Source: Alphaproteobacteria bacterium
Lineage (GTDB): Bacteria; Pseudomonadota; Alphaproteobacteria; Bin95
Reading direction: 5' to 3'
Length of the DNA stretch: 32,233 nucleotides
Assembly (NCBI GenBank): GCA_022826185.1
Contig: JAJDVH010000112.1
Location: forward strand, 1-32,233
A program made the translations under genes and the position numbers. Below the pieces are notes generated by a model. That model ran no database searches and was not told the origin of the DNA. It was given only the letters and a program-made list of their open reading frames with translations. Shown here in pieces: positions 5,801-32,233 of the stretch (position 1 is its first letter; each line of letters opens with the position of its first letter).

Positions 5801-6286
5801 GCGGCGGCCGATGTGGTGGTCTGGTGCTGCGACGGGGCGCCGGGCTTCCGGCCGGGCCGCCCGCAGGATTTCGCCCATACCGGCAATATCGTGGACGCGA
5901 TGACGGCCTATGGCGGGGGGCGGATGGGCGCGCCGCCGATCCCGCTGGGCGAAGTGGACCGCATTCTGGCCATCGGCTCGGACGGCATGATGGCGGCGGT
6001 CGACAGGGCGCGGCGCGGCGCGCTGCGGGACCTGCTGAAGCCGGGGCACAGGGCGCTCGGGTCCATCAACTCGCCGATGCAGTGCATGATGAAGGAGATC
6101 TGCGCCCAGTGCCTGCAGCTCCACCGCGACCCGGAAACCGGCGAGGAGCGGGTGGTCTATTCCTGCTTCAACCAGGACCAGCCGCTCGACCTCGTGGACT
6201 TTCCGACCCTGCGCGGCCGGCTCTCGCAGAACGGCGTGCAGGAGAAGCTGACCGCAGCCTGGATCGCCCATTGCCTCCAGGCCTGA
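2846..6286 (+). CDS. Single-chain iron-sulfur flavoenzyme: GltD/NfnB-like half fused to PyrK/NfnA-like half
   Basis: 1146 residues. Residues 1-220 have no recognisable family. A GltD-type iron-sulfur region follows, with C240, C243, C251, C275 and C301, C307, C315, C318, C322. A two-dinucleotide flavoprotein comes next: FAD motif VVGLGPAG near 389-396 and NAD(P)H motif VVVGGGLTAID near 556-566, ending with VAAGTQPNTVL. From about 830 the chain resembles PyrK/DHODB electron-transfer subunits: flavin-binding barrel FRPGQFYRLQ, nucleotide motif LLAGGGLGNAVLFSI, and a [2Fe-2S]-type set C1080, C1086, C1089, C1107. In NfnAB and glutamate synthase these modules are separate subunits. The likely role is NAD(P)H-dependent electron transfer, but the acceptor is unknown and flavin-based bifurcation is inference. 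It is transcribed alone, divergent from ctaA. Confidence 0.85.
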   Translation: MTELTLADGFRFEDLYCRDGLLRLDALFLESLDEALRAELEAARAAPDALEPKAESELVIALAPKLEGFLARLFGIEAEAAALSERHTALAPVYRCKRLFVQRRAARAVKPAEAAELDGAAVEAALGAHMPLPVEEEVFAGAVLGWLADEANAGEALEAAARYAAWALHHPQGRARHGRGVLFRQPGRVDPMRLIDTEVRTEQGAPALELPEARLRRREGFALTDAGMDLKAALDQAHYCIFCHNQGKDSCARGLRDRRTGAFASTVFGVELAGCPLEEKISEMQLLKTEGFALGALATVCIDNPLCAATGHRICNDCMKSCIYQKQDPVDIPQVETRALKDVLELPWGFEIYSLMTRWNPLNFARPLPLPETGRQVLVVGLGPAGFSLAHHLMNDGHRVVAVDGLKIEPLPAALSGVDETGGRQPFRPVRDMAEIREELSERVMAGFGGVAEYGITVRWDKNFLKLIRLLLERRAAFTMVGGVRFGGTLGLDEAFAWGFDHVAMAAGAGRPTHVPMPNALAPGVRMASDFLMALQLTGAARTDSIANLQIRLPAVVVGGGLTAIDTATESLAYYPVQVEKFLARWEALDGKVAWTEEEAEVAEEFLAHARALRAERARAAAGETPRIREMLRSWGGVTVAYRRRLIDAPSYTLNHEEVAKALEEGIRFAECLSPLAVEVDARGRAAALRLERVEIDERGRRRALGDGETVSLPARSVLVAAGTQPNTVLARESAGIALDGKYFQAVDGGGNAVVPEPTAKPDAPEVLMQRREDGRSVSFFGDLHPSFAGNVVKAMGGVKQAYPLVSRLLADRPPATDADLGARADRELRARVHKVVRLTPRIVEVVVEAPAAARAFRPGQFYRLQNFESHALRRNGTVLAMEGLAMTGAWVDHERGLLSTIILEMGGSSDLAASLRPGEPVVLMGPTGSPTEIPGDETVLLAGGGLGNAVLFSIGRALREAGSRVLYFAGYKEAGDRYKTDEIEAAADVVVWCCDGAPGFRPGRPQDFAHTGNIVDAMTAYGGGRMGAPPIPLGEVDRILAIGSDGMMAAVDRARRGALRDLLKPGHRALGSINSPMQCMMKEICAQCLQLHRDPETGEERVVYSCFNQDQPLDLVDFPTLRGRLSQNGVQEKLTAAWIAHCLQA

Positions 6287-6541: not shown

Positions 6542-8537
<1,996 letters not shown>

Positions 8538-8633: not shown

Positions 8634-8867
8634 TCAGTCGTCGATCAGACTGTATGAGCCGTCTTCGTTACGGACAAACAGCACCGTTTCACCGGCCGGA
8701 TTGCCTAGCCGATGCTTCGGCAGAAAGACAGAGTATGTACTCTTTGCCCAGCCCGGACAGGCGTCCCGCACATCGGCAGCCCGGAAACGCTCCGGTAATT
8801 TGCCGGAATGCCGGGCCTTACGGATCTGGGTAATGAAACGGCGACCCCGATCAGGGGGGTCAGTCAT
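8634..8867 (-). CDS. Small hypothetical protein, possible winged-helix fold
   Basis: 77 residues, function not recognised. The centre reads FRAADVRDACPGWAKSTYS, then FLPKHRLGNP and a C-terminal VLFVRNEDGSYSLI. From memory this layout occurs in small uncharacterised bacterial proteins and suggests a helix-turn-helix core followed by a beta-wing. That is an inference from pattern, not a family match. The ATG overlaps the end of the upstream small gene by 8 nt, so the two are probably translated together. It converges on groEL across the terminator at 8570-8595. Confidence 0.6.
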   Translation of the reverse strand: MTDPPDRGRRFITQIRKARHSGKLPERFRAADVRDACPGWAKSTYSVFLPKHRLGNPAGETVLFVRNEDGSYSLIDD

Positions 8868-9057
8868 GCGCGGCCTCTTTCTGTCTCCCTGCGATGGTAT
8901 CGCGCAGAGTCTCGACCACGCCTTCGACGCGCGCCATTCGTTCGCGCAGATTGGCGATGTCGCGTCGCATTTCGCGTTGGCCCGGAACGATCAGCAGGCC
9001 GAGAGCGACTCCGGTGCCGATGATCGCAACAATGATAGCCGCCGTGTCGCCGCTCAT
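8860..9057 (-). CDS. Small membrane-anchored coiled-coil protein, hypothetical
   Basis: 65 residues. One N-terminal hydrophobic helix (AAIIVAIIGTGVALGLLIV) is followed by a charged heptad-like stretch (MRRDIANLRERMARVEGVVE) that should form a coiled coil in the cytoplasm. Such proteins are common beside accessory genes and prophage remnants and have no assigned function. I prefer the ATG at 9057 because AGAGGA lies about 9 nt upstream. The ATG at 9066 would place that ribosome site directly against the start codon. It overlaps the next gene by 8 nt and lies about 70 nt downstream of tRNA-Pro on the same strand. Confidence 0.6.
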   Translation of the reverse strand: MSGDTAAIIVAIIGTGVALGLLIVPGQREMRRDIANLRERMARVEGVVETLRDTIAGRQKEAAHD

Positions 9058-9127
9058 GCCGTTCATCCTCTCGCTCTCGGCAGTCTCAAAGACCTATCAC
9101 GATTTGGAAACTGGACCAAGCTGGCGC

Positions 9128-9204
9128 TGGTCGGGGCGGCGAGATTCGAACTCGCGACCTTCTGCTCCCAAAGCAGACGCGCTGCCAGGCTGCGCTACGC
9201 CCCG
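9128..9204 (-). tRNA. tRNA-Pro (anticodon TGG)
   Basis: The 77-nt minus-strand transcript folds as a cloverleaf. Acceptor arm CGGGGCG pairs with CGCCCCG, followed by the discriminator A and an encoded CCA (9128-9130). The anticodon stem TCTGC/GCAGA encloses TTTGGGA, giving anticodon TGG. The T-loop is GTTCGAATC. It stands between a toxin-antitoxin pair and two small ORFs, a usual setting for accessory insertions, but no duplicated 3' end of this tRNA was noticed in the window. Confidence 0.95.
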
Positions 9205-9269
9205 CCGGGCGCCCGTCTTCTACTCCGCCGGCCCGCCGCCCGCAATCGGCGACGCCGGGGCTGCGGGGT

Positions 9270-9773
9270 TCACGGTCGCAACAGCGCGTCGAGCTCGGAC
9301 ATCCGCAGTGTGAGCATGAGCGGCTCGCGGTCCGAGAACGGGCGGAAGCCAAACCGCCCGTAGAAAACCTTCGCCCGCTCGTCGATAGCCTGCACGATAA
9401 CGGCGCGGGCGCCGATGACGCCGGCCGCGGCCAGCGCCCGGCGCAAGGCGTCGACGAGCAGGTCGGACCCGAGGCGGCGCCCCTGGTAGGCCTCGTCCAC
9501 GGCGAGTTGCCCCAGCAGGATGACGGGGATCGGGTCGGGCATCCCGCGGCCCACCCGCGACGATACCCGCCGCCGCTCCACGGCGCTGGCGGCGAGGCTG
9601 TAGAACCCGACCGCGCGGTCGCCGTCACATACGACATAGGTGCGGGCGCCGCCCCTGGCCTCGTTCAGCCGCGCCTTGCCCCGGAGCCAGGCGTCGAGGG
9701 CCGAGACGCCGGAGGAGAATTGAGAGATGTCGTGCCGGGGCGTGAGCGGCTCCGGCGGCGTCAGCGGTCCCAC
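9270..9773 (-). CDS. GNAT-family acetyltransferase toxin (TacT/AtaT-like)
   Basis: 167 residues. Homologous toxins acetylate the amino group of aminoacyl-tRNAs and stop translation. The GNAT acetyl-CoA site is visible as LLGQLAVDEAYQGRRLGSDLL, with Q/R-x-x-G-x at QGRRLG. The C-terminal catalytic tyrosine region is VFYGRFGFRPF. The N-terminus (FSSGVSALDAWLRGKA) is typical of toxin-type GNATs paired with DUF1778 antitoxins. It overlaps the end of the antitoxin gene by 13 nt, so the two are translationally linked. The exact tRNA target cannot be predicted. Confidence 0.9.
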   Translation of the reverse strand: MGPLTPPEPLTPRHDISQFSSGVSALDAWLRGKARLNEARGGARTYVVCDGDRAVGFYSLAASAVERRRVSSRVGRGMPDPIPVILLGQLAVDEAYQGRRLGSDLLVDALRRALAAAGVIGARAVIVQAIDERAKVFYGRFGFRPFSDREPLMLTLRMSELDALLRP

Positions 9774-10018
9774 TGCGGCCGACGCGCGTAACGCTCTTTC
9801 ACGGCGCGGTCCGGCTCAACCGGCGCGTCGAGGGCGGCCACGAAACCCTCCCAGGCCTCGTCGTCGAGGGTGATGACCGGCCTCTCGTTCAACACCTCGA
9901 CCGCCGCCGCCTCGCTCGACCGAAGCACGAACTCGGTCCGGCTGACGCCCCGGACCTCCGCCGCCCGGTCGATGAAGGCCAGGCGCTCGCTGGACATGCG
10001 GAAATTCACCTGGGGCAT
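9761..10018 (-). CDS. DUF1778 antitoxin (TacA-like, ribbon-helix-helix)
   Basis: 85 residues. The N-terminal ribbon-helix-helix DNA-binding part is PQVNFRMSSERLAFIDRAAEVRGVSRTEFVLRS (residues 2-34, shown as two adjoining motifs: strand VNFRMSS and helices up to VLRS). The C-terminal tail (ITLDDEAWEGFVAALDAP) is the toxin-neutralising segment of this family. I chose the ATG at 10018, which gives the family-standard MPQVNF start. It precedes the GNAT toxin, as in other TacAT modules, and probably represses the pair's promoter. Confidence 0.92.
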   Translation of the reverse strand: MPQVNFRMSSERLAFIDRAAEVRGVSRTEFVLRSSEAAAVEVLNERPVITLDDEAWEGFVAALDAPVEPDRAVKERYARRPQWDR

Positions 10019-10065
10019 GCCGGTCTCTTTCCTCCGGGCTGCGGGACCGTTGCCTCGATCCCGAC

Positions 10066-10082
10066 GTATAGCGCCTGTATAG
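10066..10082 (-). promoter_or_regulatory. Candidate operator of the DUF1778/GNAT module
   Basis: GTATAG occurs at 10066-10071 and again at 10077-10082, a direct repeat with an 11-bp period, about one helical turn. It lies 48-64 nt upstream of the antitoxin start. Ribbon-helix-helix repressors often bind such repeats. Read on the minus strand the copies give TATAC-like -10 sequences. The assignment is positional inference. Confidence 0.35.
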
Positions 10083-10155
10083 AATATCGGCAAGCTGCGG
10101 CCTGTCCGGGCCGGCCGTGGTACACTGCGGGCAGCAGCAAGCGGGAGGCAGCCCC

Positions 10156-11283
10156 ATGTCCGTCGAAGCAGCAGCGGTCGAGACCCTCGACTACCGCCTG
10201 AGCCCCCTGCCGGTGCGCGGCGATCTGATCGCGGCCCAGAAGCGCGCCTGGGCGCGGCTGGCGGAGCCGGGGGAGTGGTGGTCCGGGGCCGTCCGGGTCG
10301 CCATCGCCGAGGAAACGCGCGCGGCGGAGGATTGCGGCTTCTGCCGGGAACGCAGGGCGGCGTTGTCGCCTTACGCCGTCACGGGCGCGCATGAGACGGC
10401 GACGGACCTGCCCGACATGCTGGTGGAGGTCATCCACCGCATCCGCACCGACCCCGGCCGCCTGACGCGGCGCTTCTACGAGGAAGCCCTGGCCGGCGGC
10501 CTGAGCGATGCGGAATATGTCGAGACCGTGGGCGTCATGGCGACGGTCATCGCCATCGACAGCTTCTGCGACGCCATGGGACTGCCGCGCCACAGGTTGC
10601 CCGCGCCCCTTGCCGGGGAGCCGCGCCGGCGGAGGCCGGCGGGCGCGAAGGAGGGGCTCGCCTGGGTGCCGACCGTGGCGCCCGAAGACCTGACGGACGC
10701 CGAGGCCGGCATGTATGACGGGCTCTCGGCCGTGAACATCCACCGCGCGCTCTCGCTGGTGCCGGCGGAAGTCACAGGCTTCTTCGACATGGATTCGGTG
10801 CATTACCTGCCCGACGCGCAACTCAGGGATTACGGCACCGAATACCGCGCGCTCACCCATGCCCAGACCGAGTTCCTCGCGGGCCGGGTCTCGGCCATCA
10901 ACCACTGCGTCTATTGAACCACCAGCCATGCGGTGCTGCTCCGTGAGAGCGGCCGACACACCGGTGACGACTACGACCTGACGGCCATGGCGGGGGCGGG
11001 CGCGGCCGGCGGCGGGGTGGCCGCGGGAGAGGCGCTGGCGCGCTATGCCGAGACCTTCTGCGAGGACCGGGACGGTTTTGCCGCCGCGCGCGAACGGCTG
11101 CTGGCGGAAATCGGCGCCGAGGCGCTGGTCGATGCCGCGGGCGTACTCGCGATCTTCACCGCCGTCGTGCGCGTCGCCGATGCGACCGGCATCCCGCTGG
11201 AGGAGGAGAAGGCCCGGATCAGCGCGGACTTCCGGGGCGCGCTCGGCATCGACGGTTATCCCGCGGCCGCCGGCAAGGTGTGA
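10156..11283 (+). CDS. AhpD/CMD-type peroxidase-like protein, predicted selenoprotein (Sec254 = TGA)
   Basis: 375 residues if the TGA at 10915-10917 is read as selenocysteine; otherwise it stops after 253. The C-terminal half holds the AhpD-type catalytic pattern with exact spacing: E239, x11, C251, x2, TGA (254), x3, H258, within AINHCVY-U-TTSHAVLL. In M. tuberculosis AhpD the set is Glu118, Cys130, Cys133, His137, so TGA replaces the second active-site cysteine. Reading remains open and codon-biased like its surroundings for 121 further residues. A SECIS-like hairpin follows at 10935-10953. The N-terminal half has a second CxxC (C60, C63) without the Glu/His partners and may be a degenerate duplicate. 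GGGAGG lies 7 nt before the ATG. The likely role is thiol/selenol peroxide or electrophile reduction, with substrate unknown. The alternative is a nonsense-mutated pseudogene. Confidence 0.8.
10915..10917 (+). other. In-frame TGA, predicted selenocysteine codon
   Basis: The TGA follows TGC GTC TAT (Cys-Val-Tyr) and precedes ACC ACC AGC CAT (Thr-Thr-Ser-His), which completes C-x2-U-x3-H. Both flanking segments belong to the same AhpD motif, so the upstream and downstream frames are one protein. A single-base change from a Cys codon (TGC or TGT) would also give TGA, so mutation is the competing explanation. Confidence 0.78.
10935..10953 (+). promoter_or_regulatory. Candidate bacterial SECIS element (SelB-binding hairpin)
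   Basis: GCTGCTC (10935-10941) pairs with GAGCGGC (10947-10953) as seven base pairs including one U-G, closing a five-base loop CGTGA (10942-10946). The loop starts 24 nt after the end of the TGA and has G at its second position. Known bacterial SECIS models ask for a loop roughly 16-37 nt after UGA with a G among the first two loop bases, and both conditions hold. The hairpin lies within coding sequence, as bacterial SECIS elements do. Confidence 0.7.
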
Positions 11284-21637: not shown

Positions 21638-22027
21638 TCAGCGGTTGGGCAGCGCCTCGATATCCGGGCAGTCGAGCAGCCGGGCGTCGGCCGTCACCAG
21701 GGTCAGGCCGAAGACCAGCGCGCTCGCGGCGATGAAGCGGTCGGCCGGGTCCTTGTGGTCCAGCGCGATGCTGCGGCTGGCCATCGCCACCTCGAAGGTC
21801 AGCGGAACCTCGGTGACGGGGGCGGCCGCGAGCGCCCTGTCCAGCCAGCGGCGCGGGTCCGGGTCCAGCGCGATCCGGCCCCGCTCCGCCAGCATCATGG
21901 CCTCCCACACGCTGACCGGGGAGAGCCGCAGCGTCTCCGCCGGCGAGGCGAGCAGGTCGCGCACGGCGCGGGAAAGCCGGGCCGGGTCGAGCAGCGCCCA
22001 GAGCCAGATATGCGTGTCGAGCAGCAC
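21638..22027 (-). CDS. PIN-domain ribonuclease toxin (VapC-like)
   Basis: 129 residues. The acidic metal-binding positions of PIN nucleases are visible: D4 in LLDTHIWLW, the Glu in SVSVWEAMM-type helix (VSVWEAMML), the Asp in KDPADRFIAASA, and the Asp in LVTADARLLD. The protein is predicted to cleave RNA when the antitoxin is lost. The start is GTG at 22027, three nucleotides after the antitoxin stop, so the pair is one operon with the antitoxin first. It converges with the aquaporin gene across about 20 nt. Confidence 0.92.
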   Translation of the reverse strand: MLLDTHIWLWALLDPARLSRAVRDLLASPAETLRLSPVSVWEAMMLAERGRIALDPDPRRWLDRALAAAPVTEVPLTFEVAMASRSIALDHKDPADRFIAASALVFGLTLVTADARLLDCPDIEALPNR

Positions 22028-22030
22028 CGC

Positions 22031-22534
22031 CTAGCCGAGCGCTTCCCATTCCTCCGGGTCGAGCACGGGCGCGGTGAGGTCGCCCAGGATCCGGCCGGTG
22101 CCCGCCATGGCGCCCAGCCAGTCGCCCGAGGGCGGCGGGACGATCTGCGCCACGGGCTTGCCGAACCGGGTCACCAGCACAGGCTGGCCCGTCTTGCCCA
22201 CCCGTTCGAGAACCGCGAGGCAAGTGGCCTTGAAGGTGGATATCTGCATTTCCTCAATCCCCGCCGGCATGTCCGGCATCCCGAAAATCGACTGCGCTTC
22301 CTGCATGCCCGAATCCCCGCCGGCCTGCTCCCTTTCGTATGCGCTGCGAGCGGCGGGCGCATGGTCGGCGATGCGCTGCCCGACGAGGTCCAGAAGGCGG
22401 CGATAGCGCGCGCCGTCCCATTCGTGGCGCCGGCCGGAGCCGCTATGGATGCCGAGCGAGCGCAAATGCCGCCGGACGGTCGCCGGCGCAGCGTCCAGGG
22501 CGGCGGCCATGTCGTTCACGGTGTAGCGTTCCAC
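22031..22534 (-). CDS. Phd/YefM-type antitoxin with an N-terminal helix-turn-helix extension
   Basis: 167 residues. The C-terminal 75 are a complete Phd/YefM-like antitoxin (MQISTFKATCLAVLERVGKT, then PVLVTRFGKPVAQIVPP and a tail WLGAMAGTGRI to EEWEALG). In front is a domain of about 95 residues starting VERYTVNDMAAALDAAPATVRRHLRSLG, which looks like a MerR-type or similar helix-turn-helix. Such antitoxins are usually 75-90 residues without this extension. I chose GTG at 22534 because GAAGGAGGG lies just upstream. A start at MQISTF would have GAGGAA touching the ATG and is unlikely to be efficient. It is followed directly by the PIN toxin. The extra domain probably binds the palindrome at 22572-22592. 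Confidence 0.85.
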   Translation of the reverse strand: MERYTVNDMAAALDAAPATVRRHLRSLGIHSGSGRRHEWDGARYRRLLDLVGQRIADHAPAARSAYEREQAGGDSGMQEAQSIFGMPDMPAGIEEMQISTFKATCLAVLERVGKTGQPVLVTRFGKPVAQIVPPPSGDWLGAMAGTGRILGDLTAPVLDPEEWEALG

Positions 22535-22566
22535 CTGCCCGCCCTCCTTCGGCGTTCCATTGCCTG

Positions 22567-22595
22567 AACATACTATGGTCAACGACCATAGTCAA
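22567..22595 (-). promoter_or_regulatory. Promoter with embedded 9-bp palindromic operator of the HTH-Phd/PIN module
   Basis: On the minus strand TTGACT (22595-22590), a 17-nt spacer and TATGTT (22572-22567) form a good sigma-70-type promoter. The spacer contains most of a perfect inverted repeat, ACTATGGTC (22572-22580), AAC, GACCATAGT (22584-22592). A repressor bound there would block RNA polymerase, the usual autoregulation of toxin-antitoxin operons. The start codon of the antitoxin is 33 nt downstream of the -10 box. Confidence 0.8.
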
Positions 22596-22720: not shown

Positions 22721-23845
22721 ATGCCGGGAACCACCCTTACCGAGGCGCGCGTGAAGGCGCTCAAACCCCGCAAGTCCGTCCGCGAGGTCCGCGACGGCAA
22801 GCTCAGGGGCTTCGGCGTCCGCGTTTCGCCCTCGGGCCGCAAGCAGTTCTTCATCCACTGTCAGCATCGCGGCGAACGCATCTGGAAGATCGTCGGCGAT
22901 GCCGGAAGCATGAGCGTCATGGCCGCGCGGGCTTCGGCTGCCGAAATGATCACCGCCATCAGGCGCGGCGAGGAGGCGCCCCTCGCGCCCGGTGAGGCAT
23001 TCTTCGAAGCCGTCGCCGACACGACGTTTCGGCGTCACGAGCGGGTTTGGAAGCCCGGAACGCTCAATGTGAACCGGGGCTATCTGCGCAAACAACTGCT
23101 GCCGCATTTCGCCGGTCGTCCGATTGCCGCCATCGACCGGCAGGAGGTGCGGCACTGGTTCGCCCGCCTGCGCGTGACGCCAGTCGCGGCGGACCGGTCC
23201 ATGCCGATCCTCTCCGTCATCATGAGGGAAGCAGAAGCCATGGGCCTGCGCCCGGAGGGCTCCAATCCCTGCCGGGGCATCAAGCGCTACCGCCGCAAGG
23301 GGCGCGAGCGGTTTCTCTCCGACGAGGAAATCCGCCGCCTGTCCGCAAGGCTGACGGCGCATGAGGCCCGATGGCCGCAGCAGGTCGCGGTTATCCGGCT
23401 TCTTCTCCTGACCGGCTGCCGCAAGGGCGAGATTCTCACCCTGCAATGGGCGGACTACCGGGAAGGCCGCCTGTTCCTGCGCGATTCCAAGACGGGACCC
23501 AGGACCGTGTGGCTGTCGGCACCGGCCCGGGCCGTCCTCGACGGCCTTGAGCGGAAGGGCCGCTGGATGTTCCCCGCATCGAAAGGCGACCGGCCCCGGA
23601 GCGCGACCTGGCTGGACTGTTTCTGGCACGAGGTCCGCGCCGAGGCGGCCCTGGAGGACGTTCACCTTCATGACCTGCGCCACACCGTAGCGAGCCTGGC
23701 GCTGCGGCAGGGCGAGACCGTGTTGGCGATCGGCCGGCTTCTCGGGCACCGCAAGGCGGAGACCACGCTGAAATACACTCATACCGCCGACGCGATGATT
23801 ATGGCTGCGGCTGAGACGATCGGCGCTGCGTTAGGGGGAGAGTGA
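22721..23845 (+). CDS. Tyrosine recombinase / integrase, first of a tandem pair
   Basis: 374 residues. The N-terminal part (TLTEARVKALKPRKSVREV, then RDGKLRGFGVRVSPSG) is the arm-binding domain of P4/phage-type integrases. The catalytic domain has the full set: R234 in LTGCRKGEI, K257 in DSKTGPR, H317 and R320 in HDLRHT, H343 in LLGHRK, and the nucleophile Y352 in TLKYTHT. It is therefore expected to be active. The next gene is a paralogue starting one base before the end of this stop codon, so they are co-translated. No tRNA or clear att duplication was found beside it. A small palindrome (GCACC-TATG-GGTGC, 22612-22625) lies upstream. Confidence 0.93.
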   Translation: MPGTTLTEARVKALKPRKSVREVRDGKLRGFGVRVSPSGRKQFFIHCQHRGERIWKIVGDAGSMSVMAARASAAEMITAIRRGEEAPLAPGEAFFEAVADTTFRRHERVWKPGTLNVNRGYLRKQLLPHFAGRPIAAIDRQEVRHWFARLRVTPVAADRSMPILSVIMREAEAMGLRPEGSNPCRGIKRYRRKGRERFLSDEEIRRLSARLTAHEARWPQQVAVIRLLLLTGCRKGEILTLQWADYREGRLFLRDSKTGPRTVWLSAPARAVLDGLERKGRWMFPASKGDRPRSATWLDCFWHEVRAEAALEDVHLHDLRHTVASLALRQGETVLAIGRLLGHRKAETTLKYTHTADAMIMAAAETIGAALGGE

Positions 23846-25038
23846 TGGCGGGCAGGGAGCGGACGAAACTCACCGATGCCGCCGTTGCCCGGCTTCGGCC
23901 CCGCGAGCGGGAATACACGGTCTGGGACACGCGCGCGGCCGGTCTCGGCGTCAGGGTTCGGCCCTCCGGCGGGCGTAGCTATGTGCTGCTTCAGGATATG
24001 GGCGGGCGCACGAAGCGCGTCTCGCTCGGCCCGGTCGGGGTGAAGAGCCTGGAAGAGGTTCGCCGGGAATGCCATGCCCGTCGGGCAAACCCCGAGCCCG
24101 AGGCGGAAACCGCGCGGGCGCGGCCGGTCCCGCTGTTCCGGGACTTCGTCGCCGGGGAGTGGAAGGAGGCGCATTTCGACGGCTACAGGGCTTCGACGAA
24201 GAAGAACGTCCGCTACCAGCTGTCCGGACAGCTTCTGCCGGTCTTCGGGGCGAAGCCGCTCGACCGCATCGGGGAGGCCGCTATCCGGCGCTGGTTCGAG
24301 CGCTGCAGCCGTACCGCGCCGGGCAACGCCAACCATCATCTCACCTGCCTTCGCCAGATTCTCAACTTCGCCACCGCCTGCGGCCACATCGAAGGCAATC
24401 CCGCGCAGCGCATCGCCCTGAACCGCCGGCCCGCATTGACGCGGTTTCTGTCCCGCGAGGAAATCGACCGGCTGCACGGCGTCCTGGATGCACAGACCCG
24501 GAAAGGCAGCCGGGAGCAGGCCGACATCATCCGCCTTCTGCTTCTCACCGGCTGCCGCAAGGGAGAGATCATGGGCTTGCGCTGGTCAGAGGTCCGCGAC
24601 GGCATGCTGGCGCTTGCGGACAGCAAGACGGGGCCGAGAACGGTCCCGCTCAACATACAGGCGCGCGCCATTCTCGACCGGCAGCCGCGCGGGGAGAGCC
24701 CGTTCGTGTTTCCCTCGCCGCTCGACCCCGCCCACCCGCGCGGACCCGACCTGCCGTTCTGGTATCGTGTGCGCCGGGAAGCTGGGATAGAAGACGTCCG
24801 CCTCCATGACCTGCGTCACACCGTGGCCAGCCATGCGGTGATGAACGGCGTGCCGTTACCGGTCGTCGCCCGCATGCTTGGGCATTCCAATGTGCAGATG
24901 ACGCTGCGCTACGCCCATCTGGCAGACCGCGATATCGAAGCCGCTGCCGAACGGGTAGGACAGGCCATGGTGCGGGCCATGGGACCGGGCGCTCAGTTGC
25001 ATCCCCTGGATGCATCGAGCGACGGGTCGACCGGGTGA
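23845..25038 (+). CDS. Tyrosine recombinase / integrase, second of a tandem pair
   Basis: 397 residues from the ATG that overlaps the first integrase stop as TGATG; GGGGGAG lies four bases upstream and a GTG one codon earlier is the alternative. It has the same layout as its neighbour: arm-binding domain (KLTDAAVARLRPREREYTV), core-binding domain, and catalytic residues R238 (LTGCRKGEI), K261, H321 and R324 (HDLRHT), H347 (MLGHSN), Y356 (TLRYAHL). The catalytic blocks are nearly the same as in the first protein, but the N-terminal halves differ, so they are old paralogues rather than a recent duplication. The pair may act as a heteromeric recombinase. Confidence 0.93.
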   Translation: MAGRERTKLTDAAVARLRPREREYTVWDTRAAGLGVRVRPSGGRSYVLLQDMGGRTKRVSLGPVGVKSLEEVRRECHARRANPEPEAETARARPVPLFRDFVAGEWKEAHFDGYRASTKKNVRYQLSGQLLPVFGAKPLDRIGEAAIRRWFERCSRTAPGNANHHLTCLRQILNFATACGHIEGNPAQRIALNRRPALTRFLSREEIDRLHGVLDAQTRKGSREQADIIRLLLLTGCRKGEIMGLRWSEVRDGMLALADSKTGPRTVPLNIQARAILDRQPRGESPFVFPSPLDPAHPRGPDLPFWYRVRREAGIEDVRLHDLRHTVASHAVMNGVPLPVVARMLGHSNVQMTLRYAHLADRDIEAAAERVGQAMVRAMGPGAQLHPLDASSDGSTG

Positions 25039-25138: not shown

Positions 25139-25567
25139 TCAGGTTCCGTCGGGACGGCTGCCCCCCAACAAAGTCTTGTGGATACGATCGGCCTCTTCCT
25201 CCGACAGATCGTGCCTCAAAGCAGTCAGCGCCTTTTCCAGAAGGCCGGTTGCCAGCGTGCTCACTTGCGTACGCGGGTCGAGGCCAATCGACTTGTCGTC
25301 AAACATCCGGTCATGTGCCTGCAGAGCCGCAATTGCCTTCGGCAAGAACGTGCGGCCGTCCTCCGTCAGTTGCGTGCGGCCCATTTCCTCCGGGTTGGGC
25401 GGGACCGGCCTTTGAAGCAGGCGTTTACCGACGGCCCTCTCCAGCCTGCCGATCTGGAGCCGAACGCTTTCTTGGGAAATGTCGAGACGGCGAGCGGTTT
25501 TCGCGGAGCTCTTCTTCTCGACCATCACAAGAAACGTCCGCAGATATTTCATATTCACATGGGACAT
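25139..25567 (-). CDS. Short LysR-type DNA-binding protein without effector domain
   Basis: 142 residues. The N-terminal 65 are a LysR winged helix (MKYLRTFLVMVEKKSSAKTA, RRLDISQESVRLQIGRLERA, VGKRLLQRP). After the wing (RTQLTEDGRTFLPKAIAAL) only about 55 helical, charged residues remain, with no periplasmic-binding-protein-like sensor domain. Normal LysR regulators have about 300 residues. The end is not obviously a frameshift remnant, because the sequence after the stop shows no LysR continuation. I chose ATG 25567, with AAAGG seven bases upstream; ATG 25552 is also possible. It may be a small regulator of the neighbouring recombinases or an eroded gene next to the IS1380 remnant. Confidence 0.75.
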   Translation of the reverse strand: MSHVNMKYLRTFLVMVEKKSSAKTARRLDISQESVRLQIGRLERAVGKRLLQRPVPPNPEEMGRTQLTEDGRTFLPKAIAALQAHDRMFDDKSIGLDPRTQVSTLATGLLEKALTALRHDLSEEEADRIHKTLLGGSRPDGT

Positions 25568-25624
25568 CGCGCACCTTTCTCCCCTTCTACTATGTGCATG
25601 TTCCCGCCGTTCCAAGCCATCATC

Positions 25625-25805
25625 CTAACCCGGATTTCTCGTCCGTTTCGCTGCGTCGGGCCTCTACATGCGAGAAAGTTCGTTTTCAACAACGACTTGC
25701 CCGGTTGCGGGGGAACACACCGATGCCGACGTATCGTAACCCGGTTTCGATGCGATTTGCACGACTGAAGGGGCCGCCGATCGATCGGGAGTTCGGCTTG
25801 TGCTT
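25625..25805 (+). mobile_element. IS1380-type left-end remnant, diverged from the copy at 1-569
   Basis: It starts with CTAACCCGGATTTCTC (25625-25640), the same terminal sequence as at 126-141 and 554-569 on the other strand. The following leader aligns with those copies (TGCGAGAAAGT against TGTGAGAAAGT), and the translated start MPTYRNPVSMRFARLKG matches MRTECNPTRMRFARLKG. Similarity ends soon after DREFG, so only the first few dozen transposase codons remain. It is oriented opposite to the copies at the window start. From about 25806 to 25950 no gene is seen. Confidence 0.72.
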
Positions 25806-25950: not shown

Positions 25951-28332
25951 TCACAGTTCGAGTTTGAGGCTTGCGAACAGTACGAGTTCGGGTTGGGCAT
26001 GGCGGTTGTGTCCGGGGTGGCGTGAGTGGCTTGCGCCGAGGCGCAGTTCGCCACCGCGGCGCAGCGTCCGGCTCCATGCCGCGTGGAGGTCGATCTGGCG
26101 CCCGGAGGGTTCGAGGCCGGCCGTGGCTGTCCGGCGGATCACCGCGCCGTCCCTTGTGCGCCCGACGGGCAGGAGCAGCCTTGCGCTGCCGCTCTCGACG
26201 CGCAGCGGCTGCGAGAGGGCGAAGTGGAGCCTGTCGCGCCCGGCGAGCGGTCGTTCGGCCCGGAGCGCGAAGGCGGCGGTGTCGAGCGCGCTCATGCCGG
26301 CGATCATGCCGCCCTGCGGGTCGGGTTCGACGCGCCCGAGTTCGGCCCCGGCGCGGGCGCGCCAGGCTCCGAGTTGCGCCGCCGCCCCGATGCCGGCGAA
26401 GGCGGTTGCGCCCGACACGCGCCCGAAGGCCCCGCCGGCGCGGCTGCCGAGCAGGCTTCGCCGTTCGAGCGCCAGGCCGGCGCCGAGCGTCAGCGGCGTC
26501 CCGGCCGGGCGCCATGAGAGCGCCGCGCCCGAGACCGGCGCCGGGTCCCGCAGCCCCTCCGTCGAGAAGGCCGTGACGACCGGCCCGCCCGCCGGCGACA
26601 GGCGCGCCGCCAGGGCCCGCCCGGCAAGCGCAAGATGCCCGCCGCCCAGCTCCATCGACGCCAGGCCCAGCGCCAGCGGTCCGGCTGTGTCCGCCGCCCC
26701 GCCCGCAAACGCCGCGAAGCCCGGTTGCAGCAGCCCGGCATTGCGCTCCGCCGGCTCCATGAACGCCGCCAGGCGCGCCGGGGCGGACGGGCCGGGCGCG
26801 GCGGGCGCGAAGCCGTCCAGCGCATACCAGAACGGCGCGCCCAGCGCATCGAACGCTGCAAGCTCCTGTCCGGCGAGCGAGCGCGCCAGCCCGTCGCCGA
26901 ACGCGCCGCCCGGCGCCAGGCCGGTTGCCGCCGCCGGCGCGCCGGGGCCGTCCACCCGCGCGCCCAGTGCCACCGTCACCGCGCCCACAGGCGCCGTCGC
27001 CGCGCCCAGGTCCATCAGGCCCTGCCCGTAGGTCTCCCTGTCGGCATAGACGCCCTCCCGGTTCGCCGTCGCGAACAGGCGCGTCACAAGCTCGGTATTC
27101 GACAGCTGGTCCCGGAAGAGATGCTTCATCGCCGCCAGACCGCCCGTCACCATCGGCGCGGCGAAAGACGTGCCGCTTGCCTCATAGGTCCCCCGTACGC
27201 CCGTCTCGCCCTCATGCGGACCGAAATACGCCGCGCGCACATCCGCGCCCGGCGCCGCAAGGCACCAGGGCGCCGCGATCCCGCAGCGATTGGAAAAGGA
27301 CGCGATCCCCCCGTCCTCTGCTATCGCCACCGCCGCGACATGGTGCCCGCGCAGCTCCTCGATTCGAGCCGGCAGCCCTGCCAGAAACTCGACCGAGCGC
27401 GCATTCACCTTGCCGTCCCGGCAAAGGTCCGGATTGTTCGCGAAATCCGCCGCATCGCAGTCCTTGCCATGGCCGTTGCCGGCGGCCCACACGAATACCG
27501 TTCTGTCGTCGCGGTCCCCCTGCGCCAGGGCGGCAATCGTGTTCCCGAAATGCTGGCGCAGCGCCGCCTCGCCATATTGATCAATAATCCCCGGAAAGCC
27601 GACGCTCACATTCACGAAATCGAGACGCCGCCCGCCTTCGGACCAATCGAGAATATGCGCGACCCTCGCCGCCCAGCGTTCGTCCGCATCGCCGAAGCCC
27701 GACGGCGCTAGCGGGTCATAATGGTCGCCGGGCTCGCCCGTGGGGATGGCGAACATCGCAAGCTCCGCCCCCCAGGCGACGCCGCGCGCCGCATGCACAT
27801 CCGCCGTGTAGGCCCGCCCCGGCCGCGCCGCAATCACGCTCGCCACCGCCGTGCCGTGCGAGACGCGCTCGCCCCGCTCGTCCGTTGCGCCGTCCAGGAA
27901 GGTCTCGCTGACCCGCTTGCCGGCGAAGACCGGATGCGCTGTGTCGATGCCGCTGTCGATCAGCCCGACCGTGACGCCGCGCCCCGGCGCCGCGCCCGCG
28001 CCATGCCGCAGTTCGATCTGCGCCCAAGCCCGGTCCGCCCCGATAGCGCCGAGGCCCCACTGGTTGCGGAACGCCGCCGCCCCGGTATGGCCCGCCGCCA
28101 GCCGGTCCCGCCGTCCTCCCCACGCCGCAGGCTCCAGGCAGCCCGCCTCGGCCGTCTCGATACATTGCGGCTGGGCAGGCGGTTCGGGCGGCGGCTGTTC
28201 GGTGGGCACGGTGGGAGGCGAGCCGGAGCTTCCGGTCGGCGTCGCCGGCCCGCCGCCTCCGCCGCCGCAGGCCGCCGGTAACAGCAGAAACGCCGCCATG
28301 GCAATCCTGCATAAACCACCGCGAACGGGCAT
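25951..28332 (-). CDS. Surface S8 serine protease, lipidated autotransporter (NalP/AspA-like)
   Basis: 793 residues. The signal peptide ends in a lipobox, FLLLPAACGGGGGG, with lipidated C22. A Pro-rich linker precedes a subtilisin domain with D126 (GLIDSGID), H159 (SHGTAVAS), the oxyanion N286 (WAAGNGHG) and S389 (GTSFAAP). It closes with YGQGLMDLGAATAPVG, the junction typical of S8 autotransporters. The last 290 or so residues alternate polar and hydrophobic positions like a beta-barrel translocator (for example GRDRLHFALSQPLRVESG). The final residue is Leu rather than the usual aromatic. NalP of Neisseria shares the lipobox-S8-barrel order and cleaves surface lipoproteins. Here two such lipoproteins are encoded just upstream on the same strand. 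The ATG at 28332 follows GGGGGA; ATG 28341 is an alternative. Confidence 0.85.
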   Translation of the reverse strand: MPVRGGLCRIAMAAFLLLPAACGGGGGGPATPTGSSGSPPTVPTEQPPPEPPAQPQCIETAEAGCLEPAAWGGRRDRLAAGHTGAAAFRNQWGLGAIGADRAWAQIELRHGAGAAPGRGVTVGLIDSGIDTAHPVFAGKRVSETFLDGATDERGERVSHGTAVASVIAARPGRAYTADVHAARGVAWGAELAMFAIPTGEPGDHYDPLAPSGFGDADERWAARVAHILDWSEGGRRLDFVNVSVGFPGIIDQYGEAALRQHFGNTIAALAQGDRDDRTVFVWAAGNGHGKDCDAADFANNPDLCRDGKVNARSVEFLAGLPARIEELRGHHVAAVAIAEDGGIASFSNRCGIAAPWCLAAPGADVRAAYFGPHEGETGVRGTYEASGTSFAAPMVTGGLAAMKHLFRDQLSNTELVTRLFATANREGVYADRETYGQGLMDLGAATAPVGAVTVALGARVDGPGAPAAATGLAPGGAFGDGLARSLAGQELAAFDALGAPFWYALDGFAPAAPGPSAPARLAAFMEPAERNAGLLQPGFAAFAGGAADTAGPLALGLASMELGGGHLALAGRALAARLSPAGGPVVTAFSTEGLRDPAPVSGAALSWRPAGTPLTLGAGLALERRSLLGSRAGGAFGRVSGATAFAGIGAAAQLGAWRARAGAELGRVEPDPQGGMIAGMSALDTAAFALRAERPLAGRDRLHFALSQPLRVESGSARLLLPVGRTRDGAVIRRTATAGLEPSGRQIDLHAAWSRTLRRGGELRLGASHSRHPGHNRHAQPELVLFASLKLEL

Positions 28333-28427
28333 GGCGCACATCCCCCGATGCCGTCTCCGACGGGGGCCGCAATTTACGGCAGACGCCCCATCGTGCAAAC
28401 AGGGCGTCTGGCCGCTTCCGGATCGTT

Positions 28428-29933
28428 CTAGTTCTTCCGTTGCGTGACCATCAGATAGGTGCCGAAGCCGCCCGCGACCGCGCCGTCGTCGAACTTGCCG
28501 GTGAAGGTCCCGGCGGCCCCTGTCGGATACGCCCCGTCCGCCCCGTCGCCGTAAAGCCGGCCCGAGAAGCGCCCGTGATTGTCCTGGCCCTCGTCCCTGT
28601 AGCCGTCCGTTCCCTTGTAGGTCGAGTCCCAGGTCGCCCCGTGCGTCCGGCCCGAGAAGCCGCCGCTGCTCGCGATGGAGGTCGAGCCGAAGGACAGGCT
28701 CCAGCCGAGATCGCGCCCGCCGCCCCGGAAACCGCTGAGCCCGCCATGGATCGTCTGCGAGGAGCCGAAATCCGCATGCAGCGTCACCTTCGCCGTGAAC
28801 ACCCCGGCGCTGGCGCTGCCGTCGGCGCCCTCCTTCACATACTGCCCGGCGGCCGGGCCTTCATAGGTCGCCCGCCCCGAAAGCGCACGCGGATCGCCGG
28901 CGAAGGGCTGCGAGCCGCCCGCGAAGGTCGTCATCTCGTAAGCGCCATCGTCCAGCGGGTCCGGGCCGCGCAGCCAGAACCCGAACCAGCGGTAGTCCGT
29001 GTCCGGAACGCTCACCTGCGGCTTGCGCGAACCGCCGCCCGCTCCCGTATAGGACTTCGGCGTGAAGACCCAGCCGGCCATCGCCGTGATGCCCTTCCGG
29101 GGATCGCCGGAGTCGTTGAGCGAGCAGGTCTCGGCAACGCAGCTGTAGATGCCGTAGGCGCCGTCGAACCGCCCGTCTATCTCATGGCCCCGGTCGAAGT
29201 CCCTGTCCTCGCCGCTCACGCCCCGGTCCACCGGGTTCACCGAGTCCGTGTCGCCCTCGCGCGTGTCGCCCGGCAGGCGGGAGACATGGGTCACAAGGCG
29301 CTCTCTCAGATGGGCCGCCGTGATGCCCAGGGCGTCGTTCTGCTGGTCCGCATCGGTATCCGTATCCAGGGGCCAGACTTCGGTGAAGTCCAGCGCGCGC
29401 GGCGGCTGGATATCCGTATAGACCCAGGCCGTCGTCGGTCTCGCGGCACCCGTGCGGGTCAGGCTCTGGCCGGAATAGCGGATGGTCGTCGGCGCAACCG
29501 GGGCCGAGCCCGCCGCGCGCCACGACGCATCGAGCCATATATCCGCCTTGCTGCCGTCGGGGCGGCTGATCGTCAGCGTTCCGGGCGCGCCGGTCCCGAC
29601 CGTCTCGATAGCGTGTCGGAGCGCCGCCTCGCGCGTCGGGGTTGCGTCCTCCGACACCGCATCGCCCGTGCCGCTGACAAGGCTGTCTGTCTGGCCGACG
29701 GGGTTGCCGGAGGTGTCGCTCGACTGCCCGGCGGGGCTGTCGCCTGTCCGAGTGCCGGTGTTGCCGGGCGTCTGCGGGTTGCCGCCGCCACCCTGGCCGA
29801 CGGCGCTGCCGCTCGGCTGCCCGCCGGTGTTGCTGGCCGTCTTGGGACCGCCGCTTCCGCCCCCGCAGGCCGAAAGCGCCAGCGCCGCGCAAAACATGAG
29901 CGCCGTCGTCGATAGAAGAGAAAACCGTATCAT
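28428..29933 (-). CDS. Gly-rich surface lipoprotein with TbpB-like C-terminal beta-barrel
   Basis: 501 residues. Signal peptide with lipobox ALALSACGGGSGG (C23), then a flexible Gly/Ser/Thr/Gln linker to about residue 95. A middle region has several Cys and acidic repeats (DTDTDADQQND). The last 125 or so residues look like the eight-stranded barrel of TbpB, NHBA and related Slam-dependent lipoproteins: SGGFSGRTHGATWDS, GRFSGRLYGDGADGAY, then AGTFTGKFDDGAVAGGFG. The ending GTFTGKF-(D)DG-VAGGFG is very characteristic. The role is probably host or nutrient binding at the outer membrane, with ligand unknown. AAGGAG precedes the ATG by about 11 nt. It lies 95 nt upstream of the S8 protease and below two strong hairpins. 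Confidence 0.82.
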   Translation of the reverse strand: MIRFSLLSTTALMFCAALALSACGGGSGGPKTASNTGGQPSGSAVGQGGGGNPQTPGNTGTRTGDSPAGQSSDTSGNPVGQTDSLVSGTGDAVSEDATPTREAALRHAIETVGTGAPGTLTISRPDGSKADIWLDASWRAAGSAPVAPTTIRYSGQSLTRTGAARPTTAWVYTDIQPPRALDFTEVWPLDTDTDADQQNDALGITAAHLRERLVTHVSRLPGDTREGDTDSVNPVDRGVSGEDRDFDRGHEIDGRFDGAYGIYSCVAETCSLNDSGDPRKGITAMAGWVFTPKSYTGAGGGSRKPQVSVPDTDYRWFGFWLRGPDPLDDGAYEMTTFAGGSQPFAGDPRALSGRATYEGPAAGQYVKEGADGSASAGVFTAKVTLHADFGSSQTIHGGLSGFRGGGRDLGWSLSFGSTSIASSGGFSGRTHGATWDSTYKGTDGYRDEGQDNHGRFSGRLYGDGADGAYPTGAAGTFTGKFDDGAVAGGFGTYLMVTQRKN

Positions 29934-29985
29934 CTTTCACGATGCTCCTTGAGGTTTCAGAATGAACGGCAAAGCACACCCGGAG

Positions 29986-30016
29986 GTGCCCCTGCCGACT
30001 CGGTCGGCAGGGGCAC
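29986..30016 (-). repeat. Perfect 14-bp hairpin upstream of the TbpB-like lipoprotein gene
   Basis: GTGCCCCTGCCGAC (29986-29999) and GTCGGCAGGGGCAC (30003-30016) pair completely around a TCG loop. No T-run follows on either strand. The position, 53 nt before the lipoprotein start, would place it in the 5' leader of that gene or at the end of the preceding transcript. Confidence 0.75.
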
Positions 30017-30036
30017 TCCGGGCCTGATCGAACCAT

Positions 30037-30066
30037 AACCCCGCTACTGTGTCCAGTAGCGGGGTT
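30037..30066. terminator. 13-bp hairpin terminator between the two lipoprotein genes
   Basis: AACCCCGCTACTG (30037-30049) pairs with CAGTAGCGGGGTT (30054-30066) around TGTC. On the plus strand it is followed by TTCTTT, on the minus strand by TTATGG. It lies 27 nt after the stop of the upstream minus-strand lipoprotein gene and so most likely terminates it, although the T-tail is better on the opposite strand. Confidence 0.75.
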
Positions 30067-30093
30067 TTCTTTACTCCGGGTTAGACGCGGCGG

Positions 30094-31926
30094 CTACTGT
30101 TTCGTTGCGCCAAACACGCCCACAGCTTGCACCTGGACAGCCGTTAAGTCGCCTAGTTGCGTGATATCATACACGCCTCCAGCCTCCGCCGCATTGGCGC
30201 CGAAAAACGCACCCTCAACCGACGATCCGGCTGCGGTAATAACCGCTGTGTCCGTTGAATGCACGTTTCCGACAAAGTAACCGGACTGGGCTCCGGAAAA
30301 GCTGACGTTAGCGGCAAAAGCAAATGATTGTTTCGGCGTGTCTACCCCTCCCGTCACACCGGGGAATGTATTCCCGACGGTGCTTGTGAGCGTAACGTCA
30401 ATGCTTGCGAGGCTTAAATCCCCCCATACCATTGTGACCGTTCCCGAATCATCGGCGAAGTCACCCCAACCGGTACTATCTGCGGGATTTGTGCGGTATT
30501 TCCCCACATAGGCCCCGTTCCATGTCGCCGTGCCGGTGTTTCCCAAGCCCTGGATGTCGGCAGACGACGTACGTGTGCCGCGCAGATAGTAGTAGTCAAC
30601 GCTTTCGAGACTCGCCGTGAAATCGCCAGCATTACCGGAAGCGTCGAAATCGCCCGGCTTCTCGGACCATGCCCCGAAAGACAAATGGCTATAGGCGCCT
30701 GGCGGCGTCACGGGATCGGGGTCCGGATCGGGGTCCGTCACGGGATCGGGGTCCGAAGCGGTTACATCGTCGGCCTGGAAGCAGGAAAAGTCCGTTACAT
30801 CCTTGCAACCGCCGAACCAGCCCGCGCCGCGAATGTCGGAGACCCTGACAGGATCATTGTTGTTGTCCGTAAGGGTGGCAGAATCCTTTCGGTATTCGAA
30901 CTCATACACACCGGCAAGGGCTTCGGCGTTTGTATCGAATACAGCACCGGCGATCTTGTAATATGTATCATCATCGCCCGGCTTGGCGTTGACCCTGTCG
31001 TTATTGAAAGTCGTTTTCGGGTCGATAAGGTCGGCTGTGGGCGCCCATTCATCGCCGGCCGTATCGCTGCCGTCGGGAAGCGTTTTGGCGTCAGTAGTGC
31101 TGCTTGTGAGCGTTACCGTCACAGCGTTTTCGTTGGTAGTGAAATCCACCTCAATAGAAGCGGTTCCGCTATCATTCGCTTGCGCGCCCCAGACTCCGTT
31201 TTCATCGGCCAGTTGATAAACGCCTTCGTATTCTCCCTCCCAAGTGGCAGTTCCGCTAGGAAGGGAGCTTATGCTCGCGATAACTTCTCCCGTAACCGCA
31301 TAGTTAGCGTAAAAGCCCTCCTCGGTTAATGTTCCGACACCGAAACGCCGCTGGTCGTTAGCCGGGGCAGGTTGGTCACTCCTCCATACGCCCCAGGATG
31401 CAACGGGGCCGTTTTGGGAGGTGTAGCTGCCTGTTTTCGGAGCAGTCGGCGGTGTTTGCGGCGGTGCCGGCGGGCTTTTTGCCGAGGGCTGGTCGAAAGC
31501 CTCTAGGAGGCGGTAATACAGATTTGACAGCGCCTGTTGTTCAACGGGATCAAGACGGTAGAAGTCATGATCTGGAACGCGATTGTTGACCGATTGAGCC
31601 GACTTTGACAGTAGTGCCAGAATGTCGGCGAAAAACTGCAAGTCTGCGGCAGTTGTGGCTGCGTTAAGCTGTTTTTCCAGGGTGTGGCAGTAGCTTTCAG
31701 TCTCTCCGCAAACGGACATCAGGGCCGCGCCGCCTGCGCCGGTGCCGCCTGTGCCGGTGCCGCCTGTGCCGGTCCCGCCCCCTGGGGATTGAGGGGTTTG
31801 GGAAGGGGGTATCTCGTTGCTGGCGGCCGGTGTTCCGCTGCTACCGCCGCCACCGCAGCCGGTGAGCGCCAGCATAGCAATGAGCGGAAGGGCCATTGAG
31901 GTCTTCAGGACTGTGGCGATGTTCAC
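30094..31926 (-). CDS. Gly-rich surface lipoprotein with two repeated TbpB-like domains
   Basis: 610 residues. Signal peptide with lipobox LALTGCGGGGSS (C24), a Gly-Thr repeat linker (about 50-67), and a helical segment (about 80-145). Then come two copies of one beta-rich domain. Copy one at about 224-345 has SGTATWEGEYEGVY, DSGTASIEVDF and VTVTLTSST. Copy two at about 464-590 has TGTATWNGAYVGKY, DSGTVTMVWGDL and IDVTLTSTV. A Asp-Pro-rich hinge (390-409) separates them. The TATW-x-G-x-Y-x-G-x-Y strand pair resembles barrel hairpins of TbpB-like lipoproteins. The start is GTG at 31926 with GGGAGGAA just upstream. Base composition is clearly lower in GC than its neighbours, suggesting transfer. 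Ligand unknown. Confidence 0.8.
   Translation of the reverse strand: MNIATVLKTSMALPLIAMLALTGCGGGGSSGTPAASNEIPPSQTPQSPGGGTGTGGTGTGGTGAGGAALMSVCGETESYCHTLEKQLNAATTAADLQFFADILALLSKSAQSVNNRVPDHDFYRLDPVEQQALSNLYYRLLEAFDQPSAKSPPAPPQTPPTAPKTGSYTSQNGPVASWGVWRSDQPAPANDQRRFGVGTLTEEGFYANYAVTGEVIASISSLPSGTATWEGEYEGVYQLADENGVWGAQANDSGTASIEVDFTTNENAVTVTLTSSTTDAKTLPDGSDTAGDEWAPTADLIDPKTTFNNDRVNAKPGDDDTYYKIAGAVFDTNAEALAGVYEFEYRKDSATLTDNNNDPVRVSDIRGAGWFGGCKDVTDFSCFQADDVTASDPDPVTDPDPDPDPVTPPGAYSHLSFGAWSEKPGDFDASGNAGDFTASLESVDYYYLRGTRTSSADIQGLGNTGTATWNGAYVGKYRTNPADSTGWGDFADDSGTVTMVWGDLSLASIDVTLTSTVGNTFPGVTGGVDTPKQSFAFAANVSFSGAQSGYFVGNVHSTDTAVITAAGSSVEGAFFGANAAEAGGVYDITQLGDLTAVQVQAVGVFGATKQ
30707..30755 (-). repeat. 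Direct repeat encoding the Asp-Pro hinge of the lipoprotein
   Basis: A 19-bp unit (GTCACGGGATCGGGGTCCG) occurs at 30707-30725 and 30737-30755, a 30-bp period, which keeps the frame. It encodes the DPDPVT repeats between the two beta domains. Length variation would lengthen or shorten the hinge without disrupting the protein. Confidence 0.8.
31729..31773 (-). repeat. Three 15-bp in-frame repeats in the N-terminal linker of the lipoprotein
   Basis: GCCGCCTGTGCCGGT occurs at 31744-31758 and 31759-31773, preceded by a copy with one change at 31729-31743. It encodes the GTGTG-type linker directly after the lipidation site. The unit is a multiple of three, so copy-number change alters tether length only. 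Confidence 0.8.
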
Positions 31927-32157
31927 GGGGATTCCTCCCTTTCGAGACAGACAGGACCGGGAATTGTCGATGCGCCCCGTCGAGAACCGCGAACCATTGC
32001 CCTGGTTCGGCGCGGCGGCGGAAGCAATCGCAACGAGCGGAATCCCGGCAGCTTGCGGCGGACGCGCGGAGGTGCCCTCTGCGCCCGAAATCCGGCGGCG
32101 ACGAGGTATCGTATCGACAGGAAATCCGCCCTTGGCGGGCGGCGGAAACTCAGAAGA
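31927..32157 (-). other. Upstream region of the lipoprotein gene
   Basis: No gene is supported here. The lipoprotein's own frame stays free of stop codons from its GTG start back to the window edge, but contains no ATG, GTG or TTG. A ribosome site (GGGAGGAA) and a signal peptide mark the GTG as the true start. No convincing promoter was recognised. The heptamer array begins at the far end. Confidence 0.5.
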
Positions 32158-32233
32158 TCGGCGCTCGGCGCTCGGCGCTCGGCGCTCGGCGCTCGGCGCT
32201 CGGCGCTCGGCGCTCGGCGCTCGGCGCTCGGCG
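32158..32233. repeat. Perfect heptanucleotide tandem repeat (TCGGCGC), about 11 copies, open at window end
   Basis: 76 bases follow a strict 7-base period with no mismatch, giving nearly 11 copies that continue past the window. The array starts about 230 bp upstream of the lipoprotein start codon. Seven is not a multiple of three, so copy-number change within a coding region would shift frame. Between genes it would change spacing. It may also mark the end of an assembly contig. Confidence 0.95.

Follow-up and report, generated by a model that had tools for sequence, protein, structure and literature searches.

A subtilase with a predicted outer-membrane barrel encoded next to predicted surface lipoproteins, and its recurrent linkage to Slam genes

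The window (the whole stretch of DNA that was analysed, 32,233 nucleotides) is one entire contig, G000:C146, of a 4.48 Mb alphaproteobacterial assembly. Three consecutive ORFs on its minus strand encode, in this order, P0003, P0002 and an S8 subtilase, each with a signal peptide containing a Cys followed by a Gly run, as the preliminary description of this DNA had reported. The trio and the elements flanking it are as follows:

30094..31926, minus strand: P0003, 610 aa, predicted surface lipoprotein with LTGC-GGGG, a TbpB_B_D domain and a GTG start
29960..30093, minus strand: P0003/P0002 spacer with two strong hairpins (z -9.46), a possible terminator or processing stem
28428..29933, minus strand: P0002, 501 aa, predicted surface lipoprotein with LSAC-GGGS and, by profile, a C-terminal barrel-type domain
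28333..28427, minus strand: P0002/protease spacer with a weaker hairpin (z -2.77)
25951..28332, minus strand: S8 subtilase, 793 aa from ATG 28332, the ORF being open to TTG 28398 (25951-28398)
28267..28278, minus strand: lipobox PAAC of the subtilase, with Pro at -3 and six Gly after the Cys
27019..27984, minus strand: Peptidase_S8 catalytic domain (Pfam E 2.5e-28)
25954..26676, minus strand: predicted outer-membrane beta-barrel of ~12-14 strands (modelled stretch 25954-26853)
25139..25615, minus strand: short LysR-type HTH ORF between the integrases and the protease
22721-23845 and 23842-25038, plus strand: tandem tyrosine recombinases (Pfam Phage_integrase), 0.9 kb from the protease

The subtilase likely starts at ATG 28332, which has an SD-like GGGGGA upstream and lies 95 bp past the P0002 stop, rather than at TTG 28398; this agrees with the 793 aa counted in the preliminary description. 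Because RNA hairpins are predicted in both intergenic spacers, co-transcription of the trio is not assured, and a single operon for the three genes was dropped. Upstream of P0003 the contig continues for 307 bp, and the window contains no Slam gene, the adjacency of which is customary for Slam-dependent surface lipoproteins but not required. The terminal positions 32150-32233 are occupied by a simple repeat of ~21 bp (with the reading SAERRAP), and the contig of a sibling genome (L038) likewise stops shortly upstream of P0003.

Both lipoproteins have canonical lipoboxes (LTGC in P0003, LSAC in P0002) with Gly runs after the Cys. They had been described as a pair of TbpB/NHBA-like barrel lipoproteins, and in the case of P0003 this is directly borne out by a match to Pfam TbpB_B_D above the cut-off in two stretches (E 2.6e-9); the NCBIfam slam_lipo model is additionally matched with an E of 2.7e-7, under that model's cut-off. 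P0002 has no match in Pfam and is tentatively placed in the same class through a family profile, which, when iterated over its relatives, picks up Slam-adjacent surface lipoproteins (SLPs) and also P0003. Since the direct profile comparison of P0002 with P0003 is weak (probability 60), the barrel assignment of the former rests on this family profile, and it is by profile only that P0002 may be considered a TbpB-barrel-type lipoprotein. Members of the P0002-type family are found within 2 kb of Slam at 31 of the 78 Slam hits. Sequence searches of the PDB gave one chance hit and nothing else with the P0002 family profile, and chance-level matches only with P0002 and P0003 singly.

In the protease, the Pfam S8 match and the residues Asp148, His181, Asn308 and Ser411 (numbered from TTG 28398), which are invariant in seven homologues, uphold the earlier assignment of an S8 enzyme with a catalytic triad, whereas the lipobox that had been assigned along with it, PAAC, is non-canonical. 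As this motif departs from the lipobox consensus [LVI][ASTVI][GAS]C (PMC7857515), lipidation of the window allele is uncertain. The sibling genome G003 (L038) encodes a 97% identical protease with LAAC, a simple pattern finds a lipobox-like site in 68 of 93 protease-family ORFs, and the family as a whole is likely lipidated. The window gene is the only copy in its own genome, and a plasmid collection contained no full-length relative. The S8 domain resembles the passenger of the NCBIfam families EprS (E 9e-14) and fusolisin (E 4e-7), a likeness confined to the catalytic stretch, with scores far under the equivalog cut-offs.

The C-terminus of the protease models confidently as an outer-membrane beta-barrel. 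AlphaFold2 predictions based on a 48-homologue alignment gave a mean pLDDT of 84, a pTM of 0.81 and ~14 strands, compared to the 12 proposed previously for this barrel-like region; an earlier protease model from seven sequences had a pLDDT of 58. Foldseek searches of the PDB with the barrel model retrieved outer-membrane barrels at TM values of about 0.3-0.45, with porins first and the BrkA and EstA autotransporters included. Membership of the barrel in the classical autotransporter family is not supported: the structural matches are generic outer-membrane barrels at TM about 0.4, the Pfam Autotransporter model PF03797 matches 0 of the 48 C-termini and 0 of 10 more distant homologues, and a PDB sequence search with the C-terminal profile of the protease gave no hits. 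These proteins thus constitute a large subtilase-barrel family overlooked by Pfam's autotransporter model.

In the meningococcus a surface protease governs the amount of surface lipoprotein that is kept or released. This enzyme, the S8 autotransporter NalP, is tethered by lipid and frees LbpB and NHBA from the cell surface (PMC5472700); NalP and SphB1 are group 15 subtilisin autotransporters (PMC9289746). The window family shares with NalP of Neisseria and SphB1 of Bordetella the S8 domain, a (predicted) C-terminal outer-membrane barrel and a long low-complexity linker after the Cys, as well as, in most of its members, a lipobox-type Cys at the N-terminus. Unlike that type, it has a barrel devoid of matches to PF03797 and, by sequence, to autotransporter barrels in the PDB, and its carriers include MAGs assigned to Nitrospirota, Acidobacteriota, Cyanobacteriota and other phyla. 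It also differs from NalP in that its genes often neighbour those of Slam and TbpB-type SLPs, which is not described for NalP in the literature examined. With the Slam/T11SS systems (PMC5449769, PMC8406197, PMC12282271) the window locus has in common lipoproteins with a predicted TbpB-type C-terminal barrel, relatives next to DUF560 and a Slam in the genome; as compared to Slam/T11SS with TbpB_B_D cargo, window-type loci add a subtilase with a predicted lipid anchor. No subtilase partner was found in the texts of the T11SS gene-neighbourhood studies examined, and a literature search, mainly of freely accessible journals, yielded no description of a Slam/SLP-subtilase linkage.

A profile search for Slam (DUF560) returned six matches in the genome to which the window belongs. 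The loci of relatives were read by six-frame profile searches, and the following were found to combine the protease with Slam or SLP genes:

L121/G430: S8 and Slam ORFs separated by 4 nt, SLPs nearby
L106/G422: SLP-Slam-S8-S8
L087/G407: Slam-S8-S8
L040/G088: SLP, then Slam, facing an S8 gene; another TbpB_B_D lipoprotein is encoded upstream
L102/G418 and L104/G420: SLP-Slam, then S8
L088/G397: S8, SLP, Slam and a barrel remnant
L126/G431 and L224/G410: further linked loci
L118/G429 and L043/G005: S8 with two SLPs

Linkage was counted over 53 genomes that encode the protease, which represent several phyla and many of which are titled as sponge-associated MAGs. In 9 of them a Slam lies no more than 10 kb from the protease barrel against 0.85 expected (Poisson p 3e-7), within 3 kb in 5 against 0.32 and within 1.5 kb in 2 against 0.21, where the expectation is one of random placement from genome sizes, which ignores the clustering of surface genes and the relatedness of the genomes. 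When Omp85, an OMP family with a comparable number of hits (70), was used as a negative control, comparison of the lists revealed no contig in common with the protease. Protease and Slam also co-occur more often than expected among 385 sampled genomes of the class (11 of 37 versus 32 of 348; Fisher p 0.0009, with phylogeny uncontrolled). Mapped on a tree of 93 proteases, linkage is scattered, though with some clustering: it requires 9 changes, 8 of them forced by well-supported branches, compared to 13.3 in shuffles. The linkage of the protease with Slam is non-random against this expectation, and this kind of grouping recurs in unrelated bacteria above chance. The gene order envisaged earlier was encountered in part of the family: the protease adjoins SLP or Slam genes in several relatives, but the majority of relatives are adjacent to neither. 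In two further loci we observed unusual configurations. In L229 a truncated S8-barrel C-terminus (7348-7797, plus strand) overlaps the end of a Slam gene, and 4079-6091 encodes a candidate surface protein with Pfam TbpB_B_D and factor-H-binding-protein C-terminal domains. In L227 a group II intron-type reverse transcriptase and an ORF with a near-identical start (6833-8515 and 8707-10629) are situated between SLP and Slam.

The preliminary description regarded the cluster as alphaproteobacterial; a search across 84,980 species genomes instead places the protease in several phyla. Judging from record titles, from which the phyla were taken and in which taxonomy labels of MAGs can be wrong, its carriers belong to Alpha- and Gammaproteobacteria, Nitrospira/Nitrospirales, Acidobacteria, Nitrospinota, Cyanobacteria (including Candidatus Synechococcus spongiarum), Binatia and others. 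The bin names RHO, COS, CAR, IRC and APA match sponges sampled in PMC8163846, and from these names and the record titles we infer that many of the protease-bearing MAGs are sponge symbionts; the genome of the window is itself related to sponge-symbiont genomes. Neither Slam nor an A3-type SLP was detectable in seven protease-bearing genomes (G408, G413, G417, G421, G423, G425 and G438), among them several acidobacterial MAGs. Because of these seven genomes, the protease has some role needing no SLPs, and shedding of SLPs cannot be the only function of the family. This brings up a foraging role, in which host or environmental proteins would be degraded by the protease and the freed ligands (metal, haem or peptides) bound by the lipoproteins, as partners rather than substrates of the enzyme. 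The presence of the protease without SLPs in many genomes titled like sponge symbionts suggests that it has a substrate other than SLPs, and haem or metal binding is known for TbpB-type SLPs and for other cluster-1 cargo (PMC7857515, PMC12282271). However, inspection of the window ORFs beside the trio revealed neither a TonB-dependent receptor nor a haem gene, and we consider foraging rather unlikely.

Collinearity of the window with the sibling genome G003 ends at ~25120. In G003 a minus-strand ORF (L038 253-684) comprises a 53-residue remnant of a Slam N-terminus that continues in frame into a LysR-type HTH stretch; it is situated ~0.8 kb downstream of the protease and overlaps the collinearity break, lying mostly beyond it. 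Related recombinase pairs adjoin S8/SLP/Slam loci in L043, L126, L121 and L224 and a Slam-SLP pair in the window's own genome (L058). As it adjoins tandem integrases of a kind found near several such loci, the locus is likely to be a mobile surface-protein island. Chance proximity of integrases matters in this context because the recombinase family is abundant: the P4-type tyrosine recombinases are strongly expanded, with 26 hits in the window's genome and 33-37 in several relatives. Among the matches listed, at least 6 integrases occur within 5 kb of S8 barrels against 0.73 expected, and at least 7 within 10 kb of Slam against 2.05 expected. This excess raises the possibility that the linkage of the subtilase with Slam and SLPs mirrors shared mobile islands rather than shared function, with integrase-marked islands gathering unrelated surface genes that have transport in common but not biochemistry. 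The placement of integrases near the window protease, as at other loci of this kind, fits this alternative, and so does the reported co-occurrence of cluster-1 T11SS genes with mobile islands (PMC12282271). Nevertheless, the operon-like arrangements of L087 and L106, at which no integrase was recognised, and the near-contiguous S8 and Slam genes of L121 argue against it, and we consider mere hitchhiking unlikely. Omp85 genes are not found near integrases, but as core genes they are a weak control for hitchhiking.

The S8 triad, the barrel fold, the SLP domain types, the presence of Slam in the same genome and the non-random Slam linkage are supported by computation. Based on these observations we propose, with a probability of roughly 0.4, that the trio constitutes a surface-protein island whose protease cuts the co-encoded lipoproteins in their linkers, thereby trimming or shedding them. 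P0003 and P0002 would be lipoproteins of the outer membrane that carry TbpB-type barrels and reach the surface through a Slam whose gene is located at another site in the genome or past the contig end. The C-terminal barrel of the subtilase would insert in the outer membrane and display the catalytic domain outside, in the fashion of autotransporters, and most members of the family would also be anchored by an N-terminal lipid. The enzyme would thus share the same outer leaflet with the lipoproteins, and trimming or shedding of the lipoproteins would be the likeliest role of the pairing, with the long Gly/Ser/Pro-rich linkers of the co-encoded lipoproteins as the cut sites. In short, we infer surface location, lipidation, linker cleavage and shedding. 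By analogy with NalP, the most likely targets of the window protease are proteins displayed with it at the surface, of which the co-encoded SLPs would be the nearest candidates. That the lipoproteins could instead be inhibitors or activators (fold partners) of the surface subtilase is suggested only by the same-strand neighbouring genes and the shared surface targeting; no inhibitor domain was recognised and the SLP families also occur with no protease nearby, so that we regard this as very improbable.

A broader proposal might be made, namely that across several phyla, apparently mostly in sponge symbionts, Slam-exported lipoproteins and a dedicated lipid-anchored subtilase have been repeatedly assembled on recombinase-marked islands into a 'display and shed' module, in which the subtilase, with its undescribed barrel family, would set the residence time of the lipoproteins on the cell; in this full form the proposal is unlikely. 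That subtilase genes recurrently accompany those of the Slam exporter and its cargo is a genetic ground to suspect widespread protease control of surface lipoproteins, and the linkage names candidate enzyme-substrate pairs outside pathogens.

Two further features of the window were noted. A repeat of ~140-150 bp is present in three copies (1-142, 429-570 and 25625-25777; 74-93% identical), the third of which is inverted and lies between the LysR-type ORF and the protease; the repeat is partly present in L039/L081 as well. A gene for a PIN-domain protein (21638-22582, minus strand), preceded by one for a Phd/YefM-like protein whose match is just under the Pfam cut-off, probably forms a toxin-antitoxin pair with the latter.
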